A stretch of DNA of 47,750 bases, taken from contig JAHDHZ010000016.1 in assembly GCA_020631045.1 (NCBI GenBank), positions 1 through 47,750 on the forward strand, written 5' to 3'. The notes below the pieces were generated by a model. The model was not told where the DNA came from, ran no database searches, and worked only from the letters and a program-made list of their open reading frames with translations. The DNA comes from Flavobacteriales bacterium. GTDB taxonomy: Bacteria > Bacteroidota > Bacteroidia > Flavobacteriales_G > JALEGO01. The translations under genes and the position numbers were made by a program. Of the stretch, positions 29,282 through 36,426 are shown piece after piece; within the stretch, counting starts at the first letter, position 1; every line of letters begins with the position of its first letter.

Positions 29282-30241
29282 TCACGCAATTATTCCTAAA
29301 TGCAGAATTCTTCCGCCTGTTTGATTTACAGGGTTAACGCTTTTTCCGATTACAATACCATCTTGTGGTGCAAAATATTCTTGAATTAAGCCTCCAAACA
29401 AATCTCGCTGTTGTGCAATTAAGTCTCCTTTTTTTATGAACTGAGTAATAGAAGGAAGTACAGTGAGTAAGCCTCCAGTGCTTGTGTAAATCCAATACGA
29501 TTTTTTACAAACTACAGCTGGTGTTTCAGGTTCATCGATTTCTCCTTGCACCATTTTTAAGTACACTAAGGCATTGTATAGACCAGTTAAGCCAGAGCGA
29601 ATCATGCCTTTTTGAAAAGTGTGAGGGTTTCCTACTTCAAGAGTAATGGCAGGAATATTTTTTTCATTAGCCGCCCCTCTAAGTGTTCCATCAGAGGCAG
29701 TTTTATGTACCACTATTTGGCCATTTTGAAGCAAGGCTAATTTTTTTGTAATGGTATCAGAAAGATCAGCTCTTATATAATAAGAGTTTATTCTACCTGT
29801 AGATGCAGTATGTAAATCAATGAGATAATCTACATCTTTAACTACTTTATTAAAGAAATTATATACATATGCTTCACTTACATTTCCATTTTCAATGCCA
29901 GGAAAAATATGATTTAAATCAACATTGTCAATAAACCGTCTTTTTTTTCGATGAAAAGCAGGAATATTTACCACAGGAACGCCAATAATGTTTCCATGTA
30001 ATTCAGTAAAATTGACCTCATCAAACAACCTTTGAATCACAGGAATTCCGTTGAGCTCATTGCCATGAACTGCTGCGGTAATACCCACTGTTTTTCCATC
30101 AAAAGCCCCTTTTGCAACTATTACAGGGATAGATAAAGGTGTTGCGGTAGGCCCATCAACAATTTTTAACCAAAACTTGTGCACCCCAGGCTCTAGAAGA
30201 TCGATTTGTAGATGTTCAATTTTAGGAATTTCCATATTCAT
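29282..30241 (-). CDS. Succinylglutamate desuccinylase/aspartoacylase (M14-type) family deacylase
   Basis: The protein has 319 residues. The zinc-binding His and Glu are in AAVHGNELNGIPVIQ, the third ligand in YLIDLHTASTGRI, and the likely catalytic Glu in ITLEVGNPHTFQKG. This is the pattern of the AstE/AspA family, which hydrolyses N-acyl amino acids or related amides. A C-terminal beta domain follows (KKSYWIYTSTGGLLTVLPSI; LHLGIIA). It is the last gene of the ATP-grasp cluster and overlaps the GshB-like gene by 20 bp. Together they could form and trim an amide bond. Start choice is either of two Met codons two residues apart. Confidence 0.88.
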   Translation of the reverse strand: MNMEIPKIEHLQIDLLEPGVHKFWLKIVDGPTATPLSIPVIVAKGAFDGKTVGITAAVHGNELNGIPVIQRLFDEVNFTELHGNIIGVPVVNIPAFHRKKRRFIDNVDLNHIFPGIENGNVSEAYVYNFFNKVVKDVDYLIDLHTASTGRINSYYIRADLSDTITKKLALLQNGQIVVHKTASDGTLRGAANEKNIPAITLEVGNPHTFQKGMIRSGLTGLYNALVYLKMVQGEIDEPETPAVVCKKSYWIYTSTGGLLTVLPSITQFIKKGDLIAQQRDLFGGLIQEYFAPQDGIVIGKSVNPVNQTGGRILHLGIIA

Positions 30242-31217
30242 CTTCTAAGAATTTAATAAGTTCATTTGAATACTGTTTAAATACATTTTTTTGCCCAAAA
30301 CTATATAATGGCTGTAGACCACCAATGCTTAAAGTATTAATTTCTGAAATCATTCTTTTGCCAACAGAATTGGTCAGTAAATCAATGCCATACATAAAGA
30401 CTTTGTGCTTTTTAAAAATGGGGTTTAAATATTCTACAATTGCTCGATCTCGTTTATCTAAACTGCTAATTTCAGAGATACCCCCTTGAGCTGCGTTACA
30501 CATCCATCCACCATCTTTTGGTTTTCTAATTAAAGCGCCTAAGGGTTTACCATTTACTACAACAATGCGTTTGTCTCCCTCTTCAATTAAAGGCATATAC
30601 TTCATTGCCAAGTATGGCTGTTTATTCAGCTCATACCATTCTTGAAAATCATCAAGACTCATCTGTTTTTGATGACCAAAATATGCAATGCCTTTTTGAA
30701 GCTTGATAATGCCTTTTCCGCCATAATTTTTTAAAGGCTTCAACACAATGGCAAACCGTGCATAAAAAGCCTCAATATCTTGCCAATTTAAACAAAGTTT
30801 TACTGGAGGTACATACTGATCTAATTGCATTAAAAAAGACTTATCACTTAAAGCTTCTATTGATTCAATATTGTTGATGACAGCACAGTTTTTAAAACGC
30901 CCTTTAATGCTTTTAAAGAAATTGGGGTGTACCGGTCTTGGCAATCTAAACAAAATAGTATTGATAGCCATGGGGAGGTGCTTTTTAGCATTCAATATTT
31001 TGCTTTTAAATGTTTTAACATCAATTTTTTCATCAACTTCTAAAATATACATTGAAGCTGAACGCTCTCCGTTAAAAAAAGCATCATTTCTTTTGTCAGA
31101 TCTACTGCACACAAAAACTTTATCAATTTTTCTGTGCTTCACTAATGCATTGGTAATTCCGTAAAACGAATTACTAGAATTGTGCTTTTTATGATCTGTT
31201 AAAACAAGTACATTCAT
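30222..31217 (-). CDS. GshB-like ATP-grasp ligase
   Basis: A 331-residue protein resembling bacterial glutathione synthetase. The ATP-grasp glycine-rich loop is VLKPLKNYGGKGIIKLQ. The substrate-side elements are EGDKRIVVVNGKPLGALIRK, CNAAQGGISE and, near the end, MISEINTLSIGGLQPLY with the Mg-binding Glu-x-Asn. Enzymes of this fold join a carboxylate to an amine through an acyl phosphate. The N-terminal domain (MNVLVLTDHKKHNSSNSFYG) is GshB-like but not identical. Overlaps with both neighbours (ATGA with VOC; 20 bp with the deacylase) imply one translated unit. Whether it makes glutathione or a dedicated peptide is open. Confidence 0.85.
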   Translation of the reverse strand: MNVLVLTDHKKHNSSNSFYGITNALVKHRKIDKVFVCSRSDKRNDAFFNGERSASMYILEVDEKIDVKTFKSKILNAKKHLPMAINTILFRLPRPVHPNFFKSIKGRFKNCAVINNIESIEALSDKSFLMQLDQYVPPVKLCLNWQDIEAFYARFAIVLKPLKNYGGKGIIKLQKGIAYFGHQKQMSLDDFQEWYELNKQPYLAMKYMPLIEEGDKRIVVVNGKPLGALIRKPKDGGWMCNAAQGGISEISSLDKRDRAIVEYLNPIFKKHKVFMYGIDLLTNSVGKRMISEINTLSIGGLQPLYSFGQKNVFKQYSNELIKFLEDEYGNS

Positions 31218-31639
31218 TGTTTTTCAATAGGAGTAAAAATGTGCCTTTTATCTTTAAAGGCTTTAAATTCAATCATGTTTTCACTAGGATCTTTCACAAA
31301 CATGGAGTATTGCTCATAGTTTGACCCTTCAAAAAAAGTAGTTGAAAGGTTTAAAATTTCTACTTTTTTTTCAGTTAAATAGCGTTTCATTGAATGCCAT
31401 GCTTGTTCTGATAAAATAATGCCAAAATGGTGTGGTGGAACAGCTAGTTCATGCAAGCGTTTATTGTTTCTCGGTTTTGTTTTTTGTTCATCTAGCTGAA
31501 CGGTAAGTTGATGATTATAAAAATTTACATCAAACCATTTTGTCGTTTGCCTACCAATATCAAGGCCAAGAATATTTTTATAAAACTGCTTGGCCTTATC
31601 AATATCATTTACTGTAATTGCCAGATGAAAAACATTCAT
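31214..31639 (-). CDS. VOC/glyoxalase-fold protein
   Basis: A 141-residue protein from the ATG at 31639; a longer frame from 31672 would overlap the previous gene. It starts FHLAITVNDIDKAKQFYKNI, the typical first beta-alpha unit of the vicinal-oxygen-chelate fold. Likely metal ligands are His5, a His in PPHHFGIILSEQ and Glu in SENMIEFKAF. Family members include glyoxalases, dioxygenases and antibiotic-resistance proteins. It sits 4 bp after the small secreted protein gene and overlaps the GshB-like gene (ATGA). It could act on the cluster's product. Confidence 0.82.
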   Translation of the reverse strand: MNVFHLAITVNDIDKAKQFYKNILGLDIGRQTTKWFDVNFYNHQLTVQLDEQKTKPRNNKRLHELAVPPHHFGIILSEQAWHSMKRYLTEKKVEILNLSTTFFEGSNYEQYSMFVKDPSENMIEFKAFKDKRHIFTPIEKQ

Positions 31640-31643
31640 GTTT

Positions 31644-31976
31644 CTAGTTTTCATCATCTTCTTCAATTTCAAATTCTTCTTCTTCAGCTGGCTTTAAAGT
31701 TTTGAGTATATATATATCATCACCATCAAGATCTTCTTGGATTTTATAAGTAAGCTCAAAAACCACACCTTCTGAAGTGCTTGTATTTAACTCGTATTGT
31801 TTGATCAGGGCTTCAGGAACTTCTTCAAAAAAGTATGAGATTCCTCCTTCAGTTTCAAATTCGTAATTGTGTTGAAAAAAGCCATTATAAACCGCTACAA
31901 TGCGTTGGGAAAAAGCTGCGTTACTATTTAGTAAAAATGCTAAAATAGATCCTTTAAAAAAGTTTATTTTATTCAT
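31644..31976 (-). CDS. Small secreted acidic protein, 110 residues
   Basis: No known family is recognised. A signal peptide (MNKINFFKGSILAFLLNSNAAFSQ, cut after FSQ by analogy) leads to a small beta-rich domain (RIVAVYNGFFQHNYEFETEG, VVFELTYKIQEDLDGDDIYI) and a very acidic tail (EEEEFEIEEDDEN). It is inside the ATP-grasp cluster, 25 bp after the large ATP-grasp gene. It may be an exported partner, substrate or binding protein of the system; the acidic tail could be a modification site, but that is speculation. Confidence 0.7.
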   Translation of the reverse strand: MNKINFFKGSILAFLLNSNAAFSQRIVAVYNGFFQHNYEFETEGGISYFFEEVPEALIKQYELNTSTSEGVVFELTYKIQEDLDGDDIYILKTLKPAEEEEFEIEEDDEN

Positions 31977-32001
31977 GTTTAAAAATTAATGGGTTATATT
32001 A

Positions 32002-33447
32002 TTATTCTTTAATTAGTTCGCTTTGTATTTCATTTATTAGTATTTGATCATTGTTTAATGATTTAAAAAGCTTTGTTTTAAGTCCGCCTTTTTGAGATTT
32101 CAAGTTAATTGCTAATTTATCAATTGCAATGGTTGATAGCACTACCTGAATGAAGCCTTCAATTAAATCATCTATGCTTATACCTAATTGATTAAACCCT
32201 CTTCTTTCCATAACTAATAATCTTGATGTGTCGCTTGACCAAGACAAGTCTTTGTTTTTGATAGAGAGATTTGTGCCCAGTATTTCCCAAGAAGATTGCC
32301 CTTCTTTTAAGTGCCCAGTTAAGGGTTTTAAAGCTCTTCTAGAATACAAAGAAAGTGGTCTTAGGCCTTCTTTTGTTGCATGCACCATAATTCTAAAGTC
32401 TAACACATATGAAAACCCTTTTTTATTGGGCATAGAACCCACATGGTAAAACACGCCTTCACTTGAGGTAGAGCTCCAATTATAATTTCCAATCAAGCTC
32501 TGTACAATAAATTTTTCGTAGTGAAACTCTTGGTTCATGAAATCTTTAAGCTCTTTTTCGCTGGTAATGGTAAAAACCCCTTGCCCTGCATTGCTGTAAG
32601 GAATTTTTATAACGCCTTTTCCTCCCAGTTTTTGAATCCACAACGGAATTTCTTCTTTGTTAACATCCCAAATGGTTTGTGGGGTTAAAATCTTCAGGTT
32701 TTTTTCGGCAAGCTCCGCATTGTAAAAAGAGTATGCTTTTGAGGCTACAAGTTTATTTCTTCCTCCGGCTAAACAAGTAATAACGGGGTTAATGATTGTA
32801 GTTTTAGAAGCAATAGGAAGTCTATTCCATGGCTTTTGCGTTAAGTATCTAAAAACAAAATCTAGTTGAATCCATTTTTTTGAATCAAAAAATTCTAAAT
32901 AGCCTGATTTTGATAGACGAATATGACTTTTATCTTCATGATTATAAAATGCAATTAAGTGCACTTGTTTTTTTGTTGCTTCAGCTAAGGCATGCGCATA
33001 GCCAGAGGCTTCCATATAATTTTTATCATATATTACGGCCAAAGTCCCGTTTTTGACTTTATTTTTATACAATCCTAAAATTGTTTGATCAACAAACCTT
33101 TTATACCCCCCCATTTCTTCATATTCATCAATTAAAGGCATTGATTTTTGCCCTGAAGGACAAGAGTTATTCTCAATAACAATCATTTTTTTATTGCCTT
33201 CTTTTGTGGTTACATGAAGTAAATCTGCTCCAGAAAGCAGATAATGCTTAGGCTTGTAACTCAATATTTGGCCAAGCTCTTGAGGCGATACTTTAGGATT
33301 TAAATGACAGTAGCGCTCAACAATTTGTTTGTTAGACAGGCCAAAGAAAAATTTAATGGCTGGATGAATGGTCGCATTAATTGCTTTTTCATACCAATGA
33401 TTTTCTGGCACAAAGTTTTCTGGTTGAATTTGAAGTGTTTTTTGCAT
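32002..33447 (-). CDS. Large ATP-grasp ligase-like protein, 481 residues
   Basis: The preferred start is the ATG at 33447, 7 bp after the SET gene stop; an upstream ATG at 33516 would overlap it. The N-terminal half contains ADLLHVTTKEGNKKMIVIEN and NSCPSGQKSMPLIDEYEEMG. The ATP-grasp core follows: KLGGKGVIKIPYSNAGQGVF (glycine-rich loop), YEKFIVQSLIGNYNWSSTSS and YVLDFRIMVHATKEGLRPLS. This order fits an ATP-dependent carboxylate-amine ligase. I do not recognise the exact subfamily. It is the biggest enzyme of the cluster, and with the GshB-like protein it gives two ligases in one operon. Confidence 0.78.
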   Translation of the reverse strand: MQKTLQIQPENFVPENHWYEKAINATIHPAIKFFFGLSNKQIVERYCHLNPKVSPQELGQILSYKPKHYLLSGADLLHVTTKEGNKKMIVIENNSCPSGQKSMPLIDEYEEMGGYKRFVDQTILGLYKNKVKNGTLAVIYDKNYMEASGYAHALAEATKKQVHLIAFYNHEDKSHIRLSKSGYLEFFDSKKWIQLDFVFRYLTQKPWNRLPIASKTTIINPVITCLAGGRNKLVASKAYSFYNAELAEKNLKILTPQTIWDVNKEEIPLWIQKLGGKGVIKIPYSNAGQGVFTITSEKELKDFMNQEFHYEKFIVQSLIGNYNWSSTSSEGVFYHVGSMPNKKGFSYVLDFRIMVHATKEGLRPLSLYSRRALKPLTGHLKEGQSSWEILGTNLSIKNKDLSWSSDTSRLLVMERRGFNQLGISIDDLIEGFIQVVLSTIAIDKLAINLKSQKGGLKTKLFKSLNNDQILINEIQSELIKE

Positions 33448-33454
33448 AATTCTA

Positions 33455-34018
33455 CTAAGAGTTAGATGGATTTTCAAAAATGATTGAGTCAAAAAAATCC
33501 CATAAAGGCTGGGCAATTAATTCTTTTAGTGGTTGATGTACAGATCTGATTTGGTGCACAGCACTTAACAGTTTTTTATTCCAATATGAAGCCATTATTT
33601 CGGGTTGATTTAATTTATAGGCGTAAATTCCTACTTCTTTTAAATCTTCTGCTTCGATGTTGGTAGAAAAGTCTTTTTCAAAACCATTGCAATAACTTAC
33701 CACAGACCCGGGATAAATATCTTTCGTAGCAACTTCAAATCCCAAACCGGTAAAAGAAATGTTTGCTTGTTTGTTATAAGCAATGTATTTGCGATGATCC
33801 CAGGCTAAAACGTATGTGCCAAAAGCATTTTTAAAACAATGTTTATCTTTTACTTTTGTAAGCTTTGGGTGTACAAACAATAAATCAAGTTCTGTAAACA
33901 AGCGATCAAAATCATCTTTAACCCAAGTGATTGTACCCATAGGCACAAAATCTTTAGCTACAACAAAGTACGTGTTGTTGGTTGCATTAAACTGAGACGA
34001 AAAATCTGGATGTACCAT
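33455..34018 (-). CDS. SET-domain protein with altered core motif
   Basis: A 187-residue protein with the layout of a compact SET domain: YFVVAKDFVPMGTITWVKDD at the start, then FGTYVLAWDHRKYIA and GFEVATKDIYPGSVVSYCNGF. In SET methyltransferases the motif NHSCxPN binds S-adenosylmethionine. Here residues 80-86 read AYNKQAN, so only the last Asn is kept. The final Tyr region is also different. It may have lost methylation or use another chemistry. It is coupled by shared bases to the gene before it and is followed by the ATP-grasp gene. Confidence 0.72.
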   Translation of the reverse strand: MVHPDFSSQFNATNNTYFVVAKDFVPMGTITWVKDDFDRLFTELDLLFVHPKLTKVKDKHCFKNAFGTYVLAWDHRKYIAYNKQANISFTGLGFEVATKDIYPGSVVSYCNGFEKDFSTNIEAEDLKEVGIYAYKLNQPEIMASYWNKKLLSAVHQIRSVHQPLKELIAQPLWDFFDSIIFENPSNS

Positions 34019-34302
34019 TACAAGTTGTTTTCAAATTCAAAATCGATATCGTTATCAAAAAAATCTTTCATTGACATCTCATAAATAAGATCTGGCCCTA
34101 ACATATCATTGATTTGCTGCTTATCTACTTTGATTAAGTATGTGCAATTTTCAGTTGCAACAAGAATAGCTTTGCTTGATGTTCCATCTTTTTCTTTAAT
34201 GTTAATCATGTGCTTGTCAATACCAAACATATAATTAGATCTAATCTGCTTTAATAAATCTGATGATAGATTTGAAAGCCCAACAATAATCTTAGTTTTC
34301 AT
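34018..34302 (-). CDS. Small protein of unknown function, 94 residues
   Basis: No family is recognised. The sequence is alpha/beta: KIIVGLSNLSSDLLKQIRSN, then ILVATENCTYLIKVDKQQIN and an acidic end (KDFFDNDIDFEFENNL). There is no signal peptide or membrane segment. Its start shares one base with the stop of the preceding gene, and its stop shares one with the SET gene start, so the three are translated together. It could be an adaptor or a substrate of the ATP-grasp enzymes; nothing in the sequence decides this. Confidence 0.65.
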   Translation of the reverse strand: MKTKIIVGLSNLSSDLLKQIRSNYMFGIDKHMINIKEKDGTSSKAILVATENCTYLIKVDKQQINDMLGPDLIYEMSMKDFFDNDIDFEFENNL

Positions 34303-34580
34303 TAGTAAAGGGTTTCTATTTTAATAATTCTACAAATAGGGATAATCATGTTTTTTTTTAGTATTACTTGACTATCTGTAACACCCCAGATGGTTGTCTC
34401 TACAATTTTTTCTCCTTCGATGTCTTCGAAATAAATACGCACTTTATGGTGGTAATCATTGCCTAACATCATAGATTCTTTAAGTGCACTAGAACGCTGT
34501 TGAATCATTATCTTATCAATTAACACATCTTCTTTAGGGAAGTGTAGAAAATCAATGTATTCTTTTGGAAATGTTTGCAT
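34302..34580 (-). CDS. Small protein of unknown function, 92 residues
   Basis: No family is recognised. The C-terminal half looks like a small beta-barrel (KVRIYFEDIEGEKIVETTIW, GVTDSQVILKKNMIIPICRI). A Met-rich stretch precedes it (IMIQQRSSALKESMMLGNDY). It is the first gene of the ATP-grasp operon, directly downstream of the repeat region 34620-34753. Its stop overlaps the start of the 94-residue gene. Cytoplasmic location is expected. Confidence 0.65.
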   Translation of the reverse strand: MQTFPKEYIDFLHFPKEDVLIDKIMIQQRSSALKESMMLGNDYHHKVRIYFEDIEGEKIVETTIWGVTDSQVILKKNMIIPICRIIKIETLY

Positions 34581-34619
34581 CTTGTTAATCTTAAATACAA
34601 TATCAAAAATGAAGATTCT

Positions 34620-34753
34620 ATTCTGTAAGAATTAGGCTCTAATTCTGTAGATATTCTGTAGAAAAAAGGGCTTTGATCATCTCTAAAAAACCCGAATTGA
34701 GATTTTAGCAAGATGTATAGATTCTGAAGGATTACTAGACTGAATTCTGTAGA
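34620..34753. repeat. ATTCTGTAGA direct repeats, probable response-regulator binding sites
   Basis: Exact copies of ATTCTGTAGA lie at 34642-34651, 34653-34662 and 34744-34753. Near copies are ATTCTGTAAG at 34620 and ATTCTGAAGG at 34721; a weak one (ATTAGGCTCT) is at 34631. The first four start 11 bp apart, one helical turn. The 173-bp gap holding them separates the histidine kinase gene from the ATP-grasp operon. OmpR/PhoB regulators bind such head-to-tail repeats, and an OmpR-type regulator is encoded two genes upstream. No other gene is seen in this gap. Confidence 0.65.
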
Positions 34754-35590
34754 TCAGAAGTAGACTTCAAATATGTGCTTTTTGTCTATAAAAGCATATT
34801 TAAATGTGAAATCTAAGTGGTGTATGATTTTATTGACTATTGATAATCCTAAACCGATAGAGTGGCTCGAAGAAGATTTACTTTCAAATCGTTGGAAAAT
34901 AGAAGAGGGTAATATCTTTTGATGATTACTGTTGTTTGATATTTTAATTTTCTCTTTTGATAGCTCAATAAGAATAGCCCCATTTTTAATATTATGAAAT
35001 ACTGCATTTTTAATCAAATTCATAATTAAAATCTCGAGCAAATCTCCATTTGTTTTGAGAATTGTTTTTTCAAAAAGGAGTTTTCTAACTGTAATGTTTT
35101 TTTCTCTAATTTGAAATTCAAATAAATTTAAAACCTCATCAACAATCGAATTTATATTCACTTTTGAAATTTCATCATATACATCCCCATCAATTTTAGA
35201 AAGTAAAATAAGAGATTTATTCACTTTAGTAAGTTTTTGAACGTGCTGCATAATGCTTCCTACGATCTCAAAATCTTTTTCTTGAAGACTTTTTGACTGA
35301 AGTAAAAGTTCAATTTTCCCTGTAATTACTGAAATTGGAGTCAATAATTCATGACTAAAATTTTCAACATAACTTTGCTTTGACAACACCTGCTCAACCT
35401 TTTTATTAATGATTGTATAGGTTTGTTCAATGTGATTTCTAAGTGTGCTTTTGGCATTAAGCTGTTTTTTAAACTTATTAGAAGGATATTGGTCAATAAA
35501 AATTAAAAATCGTTGCCTAAATAATCTTACGTAAACACAAAGAGCACATGCTCCAAAAAGAACTCCAAGAAGAAAAATTAATATTCCCAT
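34754..35590 (-). CDS. Short membrane histidine kinase
   Basis: About 278 residues from the ATG at 35590; a GTG at 35602, overlapping the regulator stop by 8 bp, is an alternative. One N-terminal membrane helix (MGILIFLLGVLFGACALCVY) is followed directly by a helical linker. The H-box is VENFSHELLTPISVITGKIE. The N-box (LIMNLIKNAVFHN) and GLGLSIVNKIIHHL complete the ATPase domain. No periplasmic sensor domain is present, as in kinases that sense through another membrane protein or in the membrane itself. It pairs with the regulator encoded just upstream. Confidence 0.9.
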   Translation of the reverse strand: MGILIFLLGVLFGACALCVYVRLFRQRFLIFIDQYPSNKFKKQLNAKSTLRNHIEQTYTIINKKVEQVLSKQSYVENFSHELLTPISVITGKIELLLQSKSLQEKDFEIVGSIMQHVQKLTKVNKSLILLSKIDGDVYDEISKVNINSIVDEVLNLFEFQIREKNITVRKLLFEKTILKTNGDLLEILIMNLIKNAVFHNIKNGAILIELSKEKIKISNNSNHQKILPSSIFQRFESKSSSSHSIGLGLSIVNKIIHHLDFTFKYAFIDKKHIFEVYF

Positions 35591-35594
35591 TAAG

Positions 35595-36287
35595 CTATTC
35601 ACCTACCTCTTTTACTAGAAATTTATACCCAATGCCATACACTGTTTTTATATAGTCTTTACACCCTAGTGCTAACATTTTTTTTCTCAAATTTTTAAGC
35701 TGAGCATAGACGTGGTCAAAGGAAACTGAATAATCCATGTAATCTCCCCAAATATGCTGAGAAAGGGTTTGTTTTGTAACTACTTTATTTCTATTATTTA
35801 TAAGAAACAACAAAAGCTCGAACTCTTTTTTTGTAAGTGTCATCTCAGTATTTTGAATCAAAACATTTTGAGCGGCAATATCTATTTTAATTTCATTTAA
35901 CTTAATTGTATTTTTATTGTTAAATGTTTTTCTTCTGACAATTGATCGTATTCTTGCATTTAACTCTGCTAAATGAAAGGGTTTGGTTAAGTAATCATCA
36001 GCACCCAAATCAAGGCCATCAATTTTATCGTCTATTGAGCTGTTTGCAGATAGAATAATTACTCCACACTTCTCTTGCTTTTTATGGATTGTTTCTAAAA
36101 GCGCTAAACCACTTCCTCCTGGTAAATTAATATCAAGCAAAATACAATCAAAACTTGAGTCATTTATTTTTTCTAAAGCGCCTTTAAATGTTTTAGCTGT
36201 TTCACTAACATATCCAATTGGATCAAAATATGTTACCATATTTCGAATAAGCTCAACATCATCTTCAACTATTAAGAGTTTAATCAT
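35595..36287 (-). CDS. OmpR/PhoB-family response regulator
   Basis: A 230-residue regulator. The receiver domain has the acidic pair in LLIVEDDVELIRNM, the phosphorylated Asp52 in CILLDINLPGGSGLA, and the Lys in DDYLTKPFHLAELNARI. The winged-helix effector follows (MTLTKKEFELLLFLINNRNK, then HVYAQLKNLRKKMLA and KTVYGIGYKFLV). It is encoded immediately before its kinase. The ATTCTGTAGA repeats between the kinase and the ATP-grasp operon are its likely target. The gene starts 70 bp from tRNA-Gln. Confidence 0.93.
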   Translation of the reverse strand: MIKLLIVEDDVELIRNMVTYFDPIGYVSETAKTFKGALEKINDSSFDCILLDINLPGGSGLALLETIHKKQEKCGVIILSANSSIDDKIDGLDLGADDYLTKPFHLAELNARIRSIVRRKTFNNKNTIKLNEIKIDIAAQNVLIQNTEMTLTKKEFELLLFLINNRNKVVTKQTLSQHIWGDYMDYSVSFDHVYAQLKNLRKKMLALGCKDYIKTVYGIGYKFLVKEVGE

Positions 36288-36306: not shown

Positions 36307-36341
36307 AAAAAAAGCCGCAACACAATGTATTACGGCTTTTT
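36307..36341 (-). terminator. Hairpin terminator downstream of tRNA-Gln
   Basis: AAAAAGCCG pairs with CGGCTTTTT around a 15-base loop. On the minus strand it is followed by a run of T (GGCTTTTTTTG). It lies 16 bases beyond the 3' end of tRNA-Gln and upstream of the response regulator gene, separating the two transcripts. Confidence 0.7.
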
Positions 36342-36356
36342 ATAAAAATTTGTTGT

Positions 36357-36426
36357 TGCCCGGCAAGGATTCGAACCCTGACCAAAGGTACCAAAAACCC
36401 ATGTGCTACCATTACACCACCAGGCA
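36357..36426 (-). tRNA. tRNA-Gln (anticodon TTG)
   Basis: A cloverleaf can be drawn by eye: acceptor TGCCTGG with CCGGGCA, a D-arm GGTGTAATGGTAGCACA, anticodon loop TTTTGGT between GGT and ACC (anticodon TTG), and a T-arm CAGGG-TTCGAAT-CCTTG. The encoded 3' end has no CCA. The outer anticodon-stem pair is mismatched, yet the overall form is normal. It stands at the border of the two-component/ATP-grasp cluster. Confidence 0.9.

Follow-up and report, generated by a model that had tools for sequence, protein, structure and literature searches.

Four 11-bp repeats at an operon promoter as the probable docking sites of a neighbouring response regulator in a Flavobacteriales bacterium

We analysed a 47,750-nucleotide stretch of the genome of a Flavobacteriales bacterium (contig JAHDHZ010000016.1, hereafter the window) in which short repeats are located between a two-component system and the next operon. 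Very probably, these repeats are where the neighbouring response regulator docks at the promoter of that operon, in four sites spaced by one turn of the DNA. On the minus strand the order is response regulator, histidine kinase, array, z, y, x, a 480-aa protein, a 110-aa protein, a VOC protein, an ATP-grasp ligase and an AstE/AspA-type deacylase (Table 1). We are confident that the core array is the operator of the adjacent regulator, namely a class II activator site of the OmpR/PhoB type that would switch on the z operon. Sequence, register, conservation, promoter geometry and co-occurrence with the regulator subfamily are all seen directly in the genomes compared.

Table 1. Features of the array region in the window, with the basis of each assignment
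Feature	Coordinates	Strand	Basis
OmpR/PhoB-type response regulator, predicted array binder	35595..36287	-	Pfam Response_reg and Trans_reg_C
Short histidine kinase, 282 aa	34754..35602	-	HisKA and HATPase_c; closest to PorY family
Out-of-phase copy TCTACAGAAT	34744..34753	-	Directly after kinase stop; missing from genus-mate
Out-of-phase copy CCTTCAGAAT	34721..34730	-	Outside conserved array; missing from genus-mate gap
Core operator (predicted), four head-to-tail 11-bp units CTACAGAATAT CTACAGAATTA GAGCCTAATTC TTACAGAATAG	34618..34661	-	Sequence, register, conservation
Predicted -7 element CATTTTTG	34604..34611	-	Consensus TAnnTTTG; fixed position relative to array
Gene z, first of operon, small conserved protein	34302..34580	-	Homologues after array in L011, L214, L226, L227, L228
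Gene y, small protein	34018..34302	-	Homologue after z in L011, L228; after array in L013
Gene x, degenerate SET-like protein	33455..34018	-	Aligns with L226 and L229 proteins matching Pfam SET
Remaining putative operon: 480-aa, 110-aa, VOC, glutathione-synthetase-like ATP-grasp ligase, AstE/AspA-type deacylase	29282..33447	-	ORFs and Pfam

A reading of the sequence alone had described three exact and two near copies of a 10-mer in the only sizeable gap of the cluster, and had given four of them an exact 11-bp spacing. All five copies were located: ATTCTGTAGA occurs exactly at 34642-34651, 34653-34662 and 34744-34753, and with two mismatches at 34620-34629 and 34721-34730. The gap, bounded by the kinase (34754-35602) and the first small ORF (34302-34580), measures 173 bp and is indeed the largest in the cluster. 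Shuffling this gap 20,000 times yielded some 10-mer in three copies in 11 cases and a 10-mer pair at 11-bp distance in 10, and no second 173-bp stretch of the window (20-bp steps) holds a triple 10-mer or such a pair. Single copies with at most two mismatches are common: the window has 61, and 60.8 are expected.

The claimed spacing proved true for part of the copies. Positions 34642 and 34653 are 11 bp apart and 34620 is in phase at 22, which gives three of the five named copies in register; slot 34631 (ATTAGGCTCT), between 34620 and 34642, is degenerate. The copies at 34721 and 34744 are 23 bp apart and out of phase (7.18 and 9.27 periods from 34642), and were ruled out as part of the core array by their phase and lack of conservation. 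The latter copy occupies the place, after the kinase stop, where the two-unit box of the wider family usually lies, and is possibly a relic of such a box. Relatives identify the four-unit register as the real object, since most of them have a unit in the slot where the window has only a degenerate one.

Read on the operon strand (34661 down to 34618), the core consists of four 11-bp units (CTACAGAATNN), the third of which is degenerate, and is followed by AATCTT and then CATTTTTG. The last 9-mer of the array ends 8 bp ahead of this element, which resembles the -7 box of Bacteroidota. Flavobacterial sigma-A recognises a -7 box TAnnTTTG, placed at -12 to -5 (PMC9723704). From this likeness transcription is predicted to start near 34599, which leaves 19 nt to the ATG of z. 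Relative to this start the array covers about -62 to -19, the place of a -33 element, and no recognisable -33 element was found under the boxes. The distance between box and -7 element is nearly invariant, and the position beside the core promoter is fixed, with TAnnTTTG visible in the column frequencies. E. coli-type promoters, which are not expected in this phylum, showed no excess over shuffles, and an Rfam search for known RNA elements gave just a tRNA.

The proposed mechanism is as follows. The phosphorylated regulator would bind the array as head-to-tail dimers of two 11-bp units each, so that two dimers would fit the four units. With the array over the -33 place and its last 9-mer 8 bp from the -7 element, the bound regulator would act as a class II activator: it would bring in sigma-A RNA polymerase and so switch on the operon starting with z at 34580. 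Here we infer binding, phosphorylation dependence, dimer count, activation over repression and, from gene spacing only, a single transcript down to 29282. The same regulator might also act in the opposite sense, by covering the promoter and repressing it. We consider this unlikely: although the array overlaps the region of -33 contact and geometry alone leaves the sign of control unfixed, a near-invariant distance to the -7 element combined with a missing -33 element is what one expects if the regulator must touch RNA polymerase.

Conservation of the array was evaluated in related genomes, of which a single one among those searched belongs to the same genus. The cluster of this genus-mate is identical in content to that of the window, except that x and the 110-aa protein have no match. 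Its array reads CTACAGAATTT CTACAGAATTT CTACTAAAATC TTACAGAATCT, with CATATTTG as far behind it as the -7-like element lies in the window. The flanking DNA has diverged while the array and its spacing are kept, and the counterpart of the window's degenerate unit can be recognised. A quick tree groups the regulators of the window, the genus-mate and L214 (SH-aLRT 84), and these with the regulators of family f21 (94).

The array is present in six further genomes with related regulators, preceded in five by a short kinase. In L214 and L226-L229 the regulator and the short kinase are followed by 4-6 units that keep the 11-bp register. Gene z comes after the array in L214, L226, L227 and L228, where the array follows the short kinase in all four; in L229 z was not found and a SET homologue is the next recognised gene. 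In L013, from the family of the window, the regulator has no recognised kinase for a neighbour, and the array ahead of a y homologue consists of two strong units and two weak ones. Scored with a motif built from the wider family, strong units of these arrays reach about 6-14, where the background has a median of -14. Weak third units score -7.8 (window), 3.8 (L011) and 0.8 (L214), and the weak third and fourth units of L013 score -5.0 and 2.6. Register and position are conserved over several genomes and two families. The sequence-only reading was to fall if the repeats were lost in relatives that have the cluster; array, 11-bp pitch and -7 distance are kept there, and in the genus-mate gap the conservation extends to the core array and not to the copies at 34721 and 34744.

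A related two-unit box is found beside homologous regulators across Bacteroidota. The unit motif was compiled by visual inspection of the window, its genus-mate and the first fetched loci, and test loci were fetched by protein similarity alone. Among 36 regulator homologues from named genomes outside the training set, an upstream box with a score of 10 or more is present at spacing 11 in 14; no other spacing tested gave more than 2, and the control regulators gave 0-1 of 36. The latter are mostly non-Bacteroidota, OmpR-family regulators whose loci differ in base composition from the test loci, and the within-locus comparison of spacings is therefore the stronger control. In 40 further non-training loci a box scoring at least 12 at spacing 11 was found upstream of the regulator in 20 and after the kinase in 19; other spacings gave at most 2 and at most 1, respectively. 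Pooling all loci, some of them training loci, places a box at one or both positions in 74 of 95. About a fifth of the regulator homologue loci have no box at the threshold used.

The tie to the promoter was also observed in the wider family. Of 112 boxes (a count that again partly includes training loci), 54 have a TTTG behind them at offset 11 and 4 at offset 12, with at most one at any other offset. As the promoter was absent from the motif definition, this offset is independent evidence of the link between box and promoter. Recognition helix and box vary together: KNLR pairs with AG in the downstream unit in 47 of 58 cases and KNLK in 13 of 42, which suggests that the regulator reads the box, although phylogeny confounds the comparison.

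Another DNA-binding protein could use the array in place of the adjacent regulator, the predicted binder, given that the genome encodes other OmpR-family regulators too (14 matches). This is quite improbable, however, since the box lies beside this regulator subfamily at two places of the locus and over many families, and no enrichment was seen upstream of the other OmpR-family regulators of the control set. Other OmpR-type regulators of the family might read similar repeats. The proposed search of the whole genome for further pairs at 11 bp turned up no second exact site, and weaker matches equal the control pattern. That the repeats are a functionless product of chance or slippage can practically be dismissed: short copies with two mismatches are frequent, and of the five copies two lack both phase and conservation, but the idea is contradicted by the conserved register and position in several genomes of two families, the sharp spacing and the promoter offset.

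The preferred reading, the array as operator of the adjacent regulator, fits what this protein looks like. It has receiver and winged-helix (Trans_reg_C) domains and remains below the cut-offs for PhoB (NF053854, 148.4 against 270 bits; TIGR02154, 161.4 against 296.2 bits) and for PmrA/BasR (NF007928, 170.5 against 330 bits), the latter being its best NCBIfam match and also among its best structural matches. The pho box of PhoB and the PmrA/BasR box consist of head-to-tail half-sites at 11-bp pitch next to the core promoter. The array shares these properties, and the domain layout of its regulator, with the direct-repeat operators of PhoB, PmrA and PhoP. The earlier attribution of an 11-bp head-to-tail period to the OmpR/PhoB class agrees with the sites of M. 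tuberculosis PhoP, described in PMC4832192 as 7-bp motifs with a 4-bp spacer. Differences are equally clear: the half-site (CTACAGAAT, generally TNCARAAT) is not known from other OmpR/PhoB-family operators, the clade of the window has 4-6 units against two and ties them to the Bacteroidota -7 element, and the regulator is far under the PmrA and PhoB family cut-offs.

The kinase of the window aligns with the PorY family (NF052314) over residues 199-418 only, the C-terminal half, at 223.9 bits and thus below the cut-off of 350; most of the sensor region is missing. In contrast, full-length kinases beside homologous regulators exceed this cut-off (L012 451.8, L061 426.2 and L079 474.6 bits). Across the branch of the window the kinase is cut to 215-328 aa. 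It has 282 aa in window and genus-mate and only 215-220 aa in L226-L228, whose kinases show neither a membrane segment nor a sensor domain in their N-terminal part. PorX is a different kind of partner from an OmpR-type response regulator. PorY is known as the kinase that works with PorX in type IX secretion (PMC10951265). In 31 of 78 loci BLAST finds the next gene similar to three short exported seed proteins of PepSY-like appearance, a tentative name, as one of them gave a weak, sub-cut-off match to Pfam PepSY_like. A terminator-like hairpin of 15 pairs (36309-36341, minus strand) lies between a tRNA gene (36356-36426) and the regulator start at 36287, leaving little room for a promoter of the regulator.

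Few operator sequences seem known for two-component systems of Bacteroidota. Searches of the open-access literature, combining TTCAGAAT with response regulators and TTCAGAATT with Bacteroid-, gave no paper with a title or abstract on such an operator, and in the open-access papers searched we found no earlier report of the box. A comparable Bacteroidota two-component pair is HaeSR of Porphyromonas gingivalis (PG0719-PG0720), whose regulator binds its own promoter (PMC3764172) and protects about 52 bp at one target (PMC8757827). Neither paper contains 'consensus' or 'direct repeat', and the passages considered give no operator motif.

The prediction that the adjacent regulator controls the operon at 34580 gains from the motif tracking the regulator subfamily, upstream of the regulator and after the kinase stop; as to the genes controlled, the predicted conserved target is the small-protein operon and not the ATP-grasp genes, which are linked to the array only in the genus of the window. 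The 480-aa and AstE-type genes are present in four other genomes that do not have the two-component system. This rules out the array as a general feature of the ATP-grasp operon, and makes the place of these genes in the regulon look like a later addition. In the branch of the window the array is followed by z and often by y; in L226, homologues of the 110-aa protein and of a SET-domain protein are present as well.

Homologues of z occur in 48 of 100 related genomes, often distant from any such kinase. The predicted fold of z is confident (mean pLDDT 88.9), with Hfq (Sm-like) proteins and a WYL-domain regulator as best PDB matches; as the best E is 0.015 and none reaches 0.001, this likeness is only a lead. 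Compared with the SET-domain proteins of L226 and L229, x has lost the NHS and GEELTDDYG motifs and may therefore be catalytically dead. For the 504-aa ORF at 32002-33516, the true start is probably the ATG at 33447, giving the 480-aa protein, because alignments with homologues begin at about residue 23-30 and the longer version would run into x; sequence searches of Pfam and PDB gave no significant match for it. Genes resembling arginine decarboxylase, agmatinase and deoxyhypusine synthase, names read off the sequences rather than taken from a family search, occur near ATP-grasp/AstE genes or the regulator-z cluster in L057, L058, L214 and L226, hinting at polyamine-related chemistry.

Summarizing, the results can be placed in a wider reading that we put forward tentatively, as somewhat short of an even chance. 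A widespread Bacteroidota two-component family, with a PorY-type kinase and an OmpR-type regulator and often near a PepSY-like exported protein, may use one undescribed operator-promoter code. In the branch of the window the sensor region would have been lost, and the operator would have grown to 4-6 units and acquired new targets, namely cytoplasmic small proteins, a SET-like protein and, in the genus, ATP-grasp genes. The input signal would then arise within the cell. With a 20-bp box whose distance from the -7 element is fixed, the regulons of a widespread regulator family could be predicted one genome after another, and with the same code beside related regulators across Bacteroidota, target genes become predictable and testable. 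Likewise, an operon of small proteins, a SET-like protein and ATP-grasp ligases would be tied to a specific signalling pair, through which its function can be tested.
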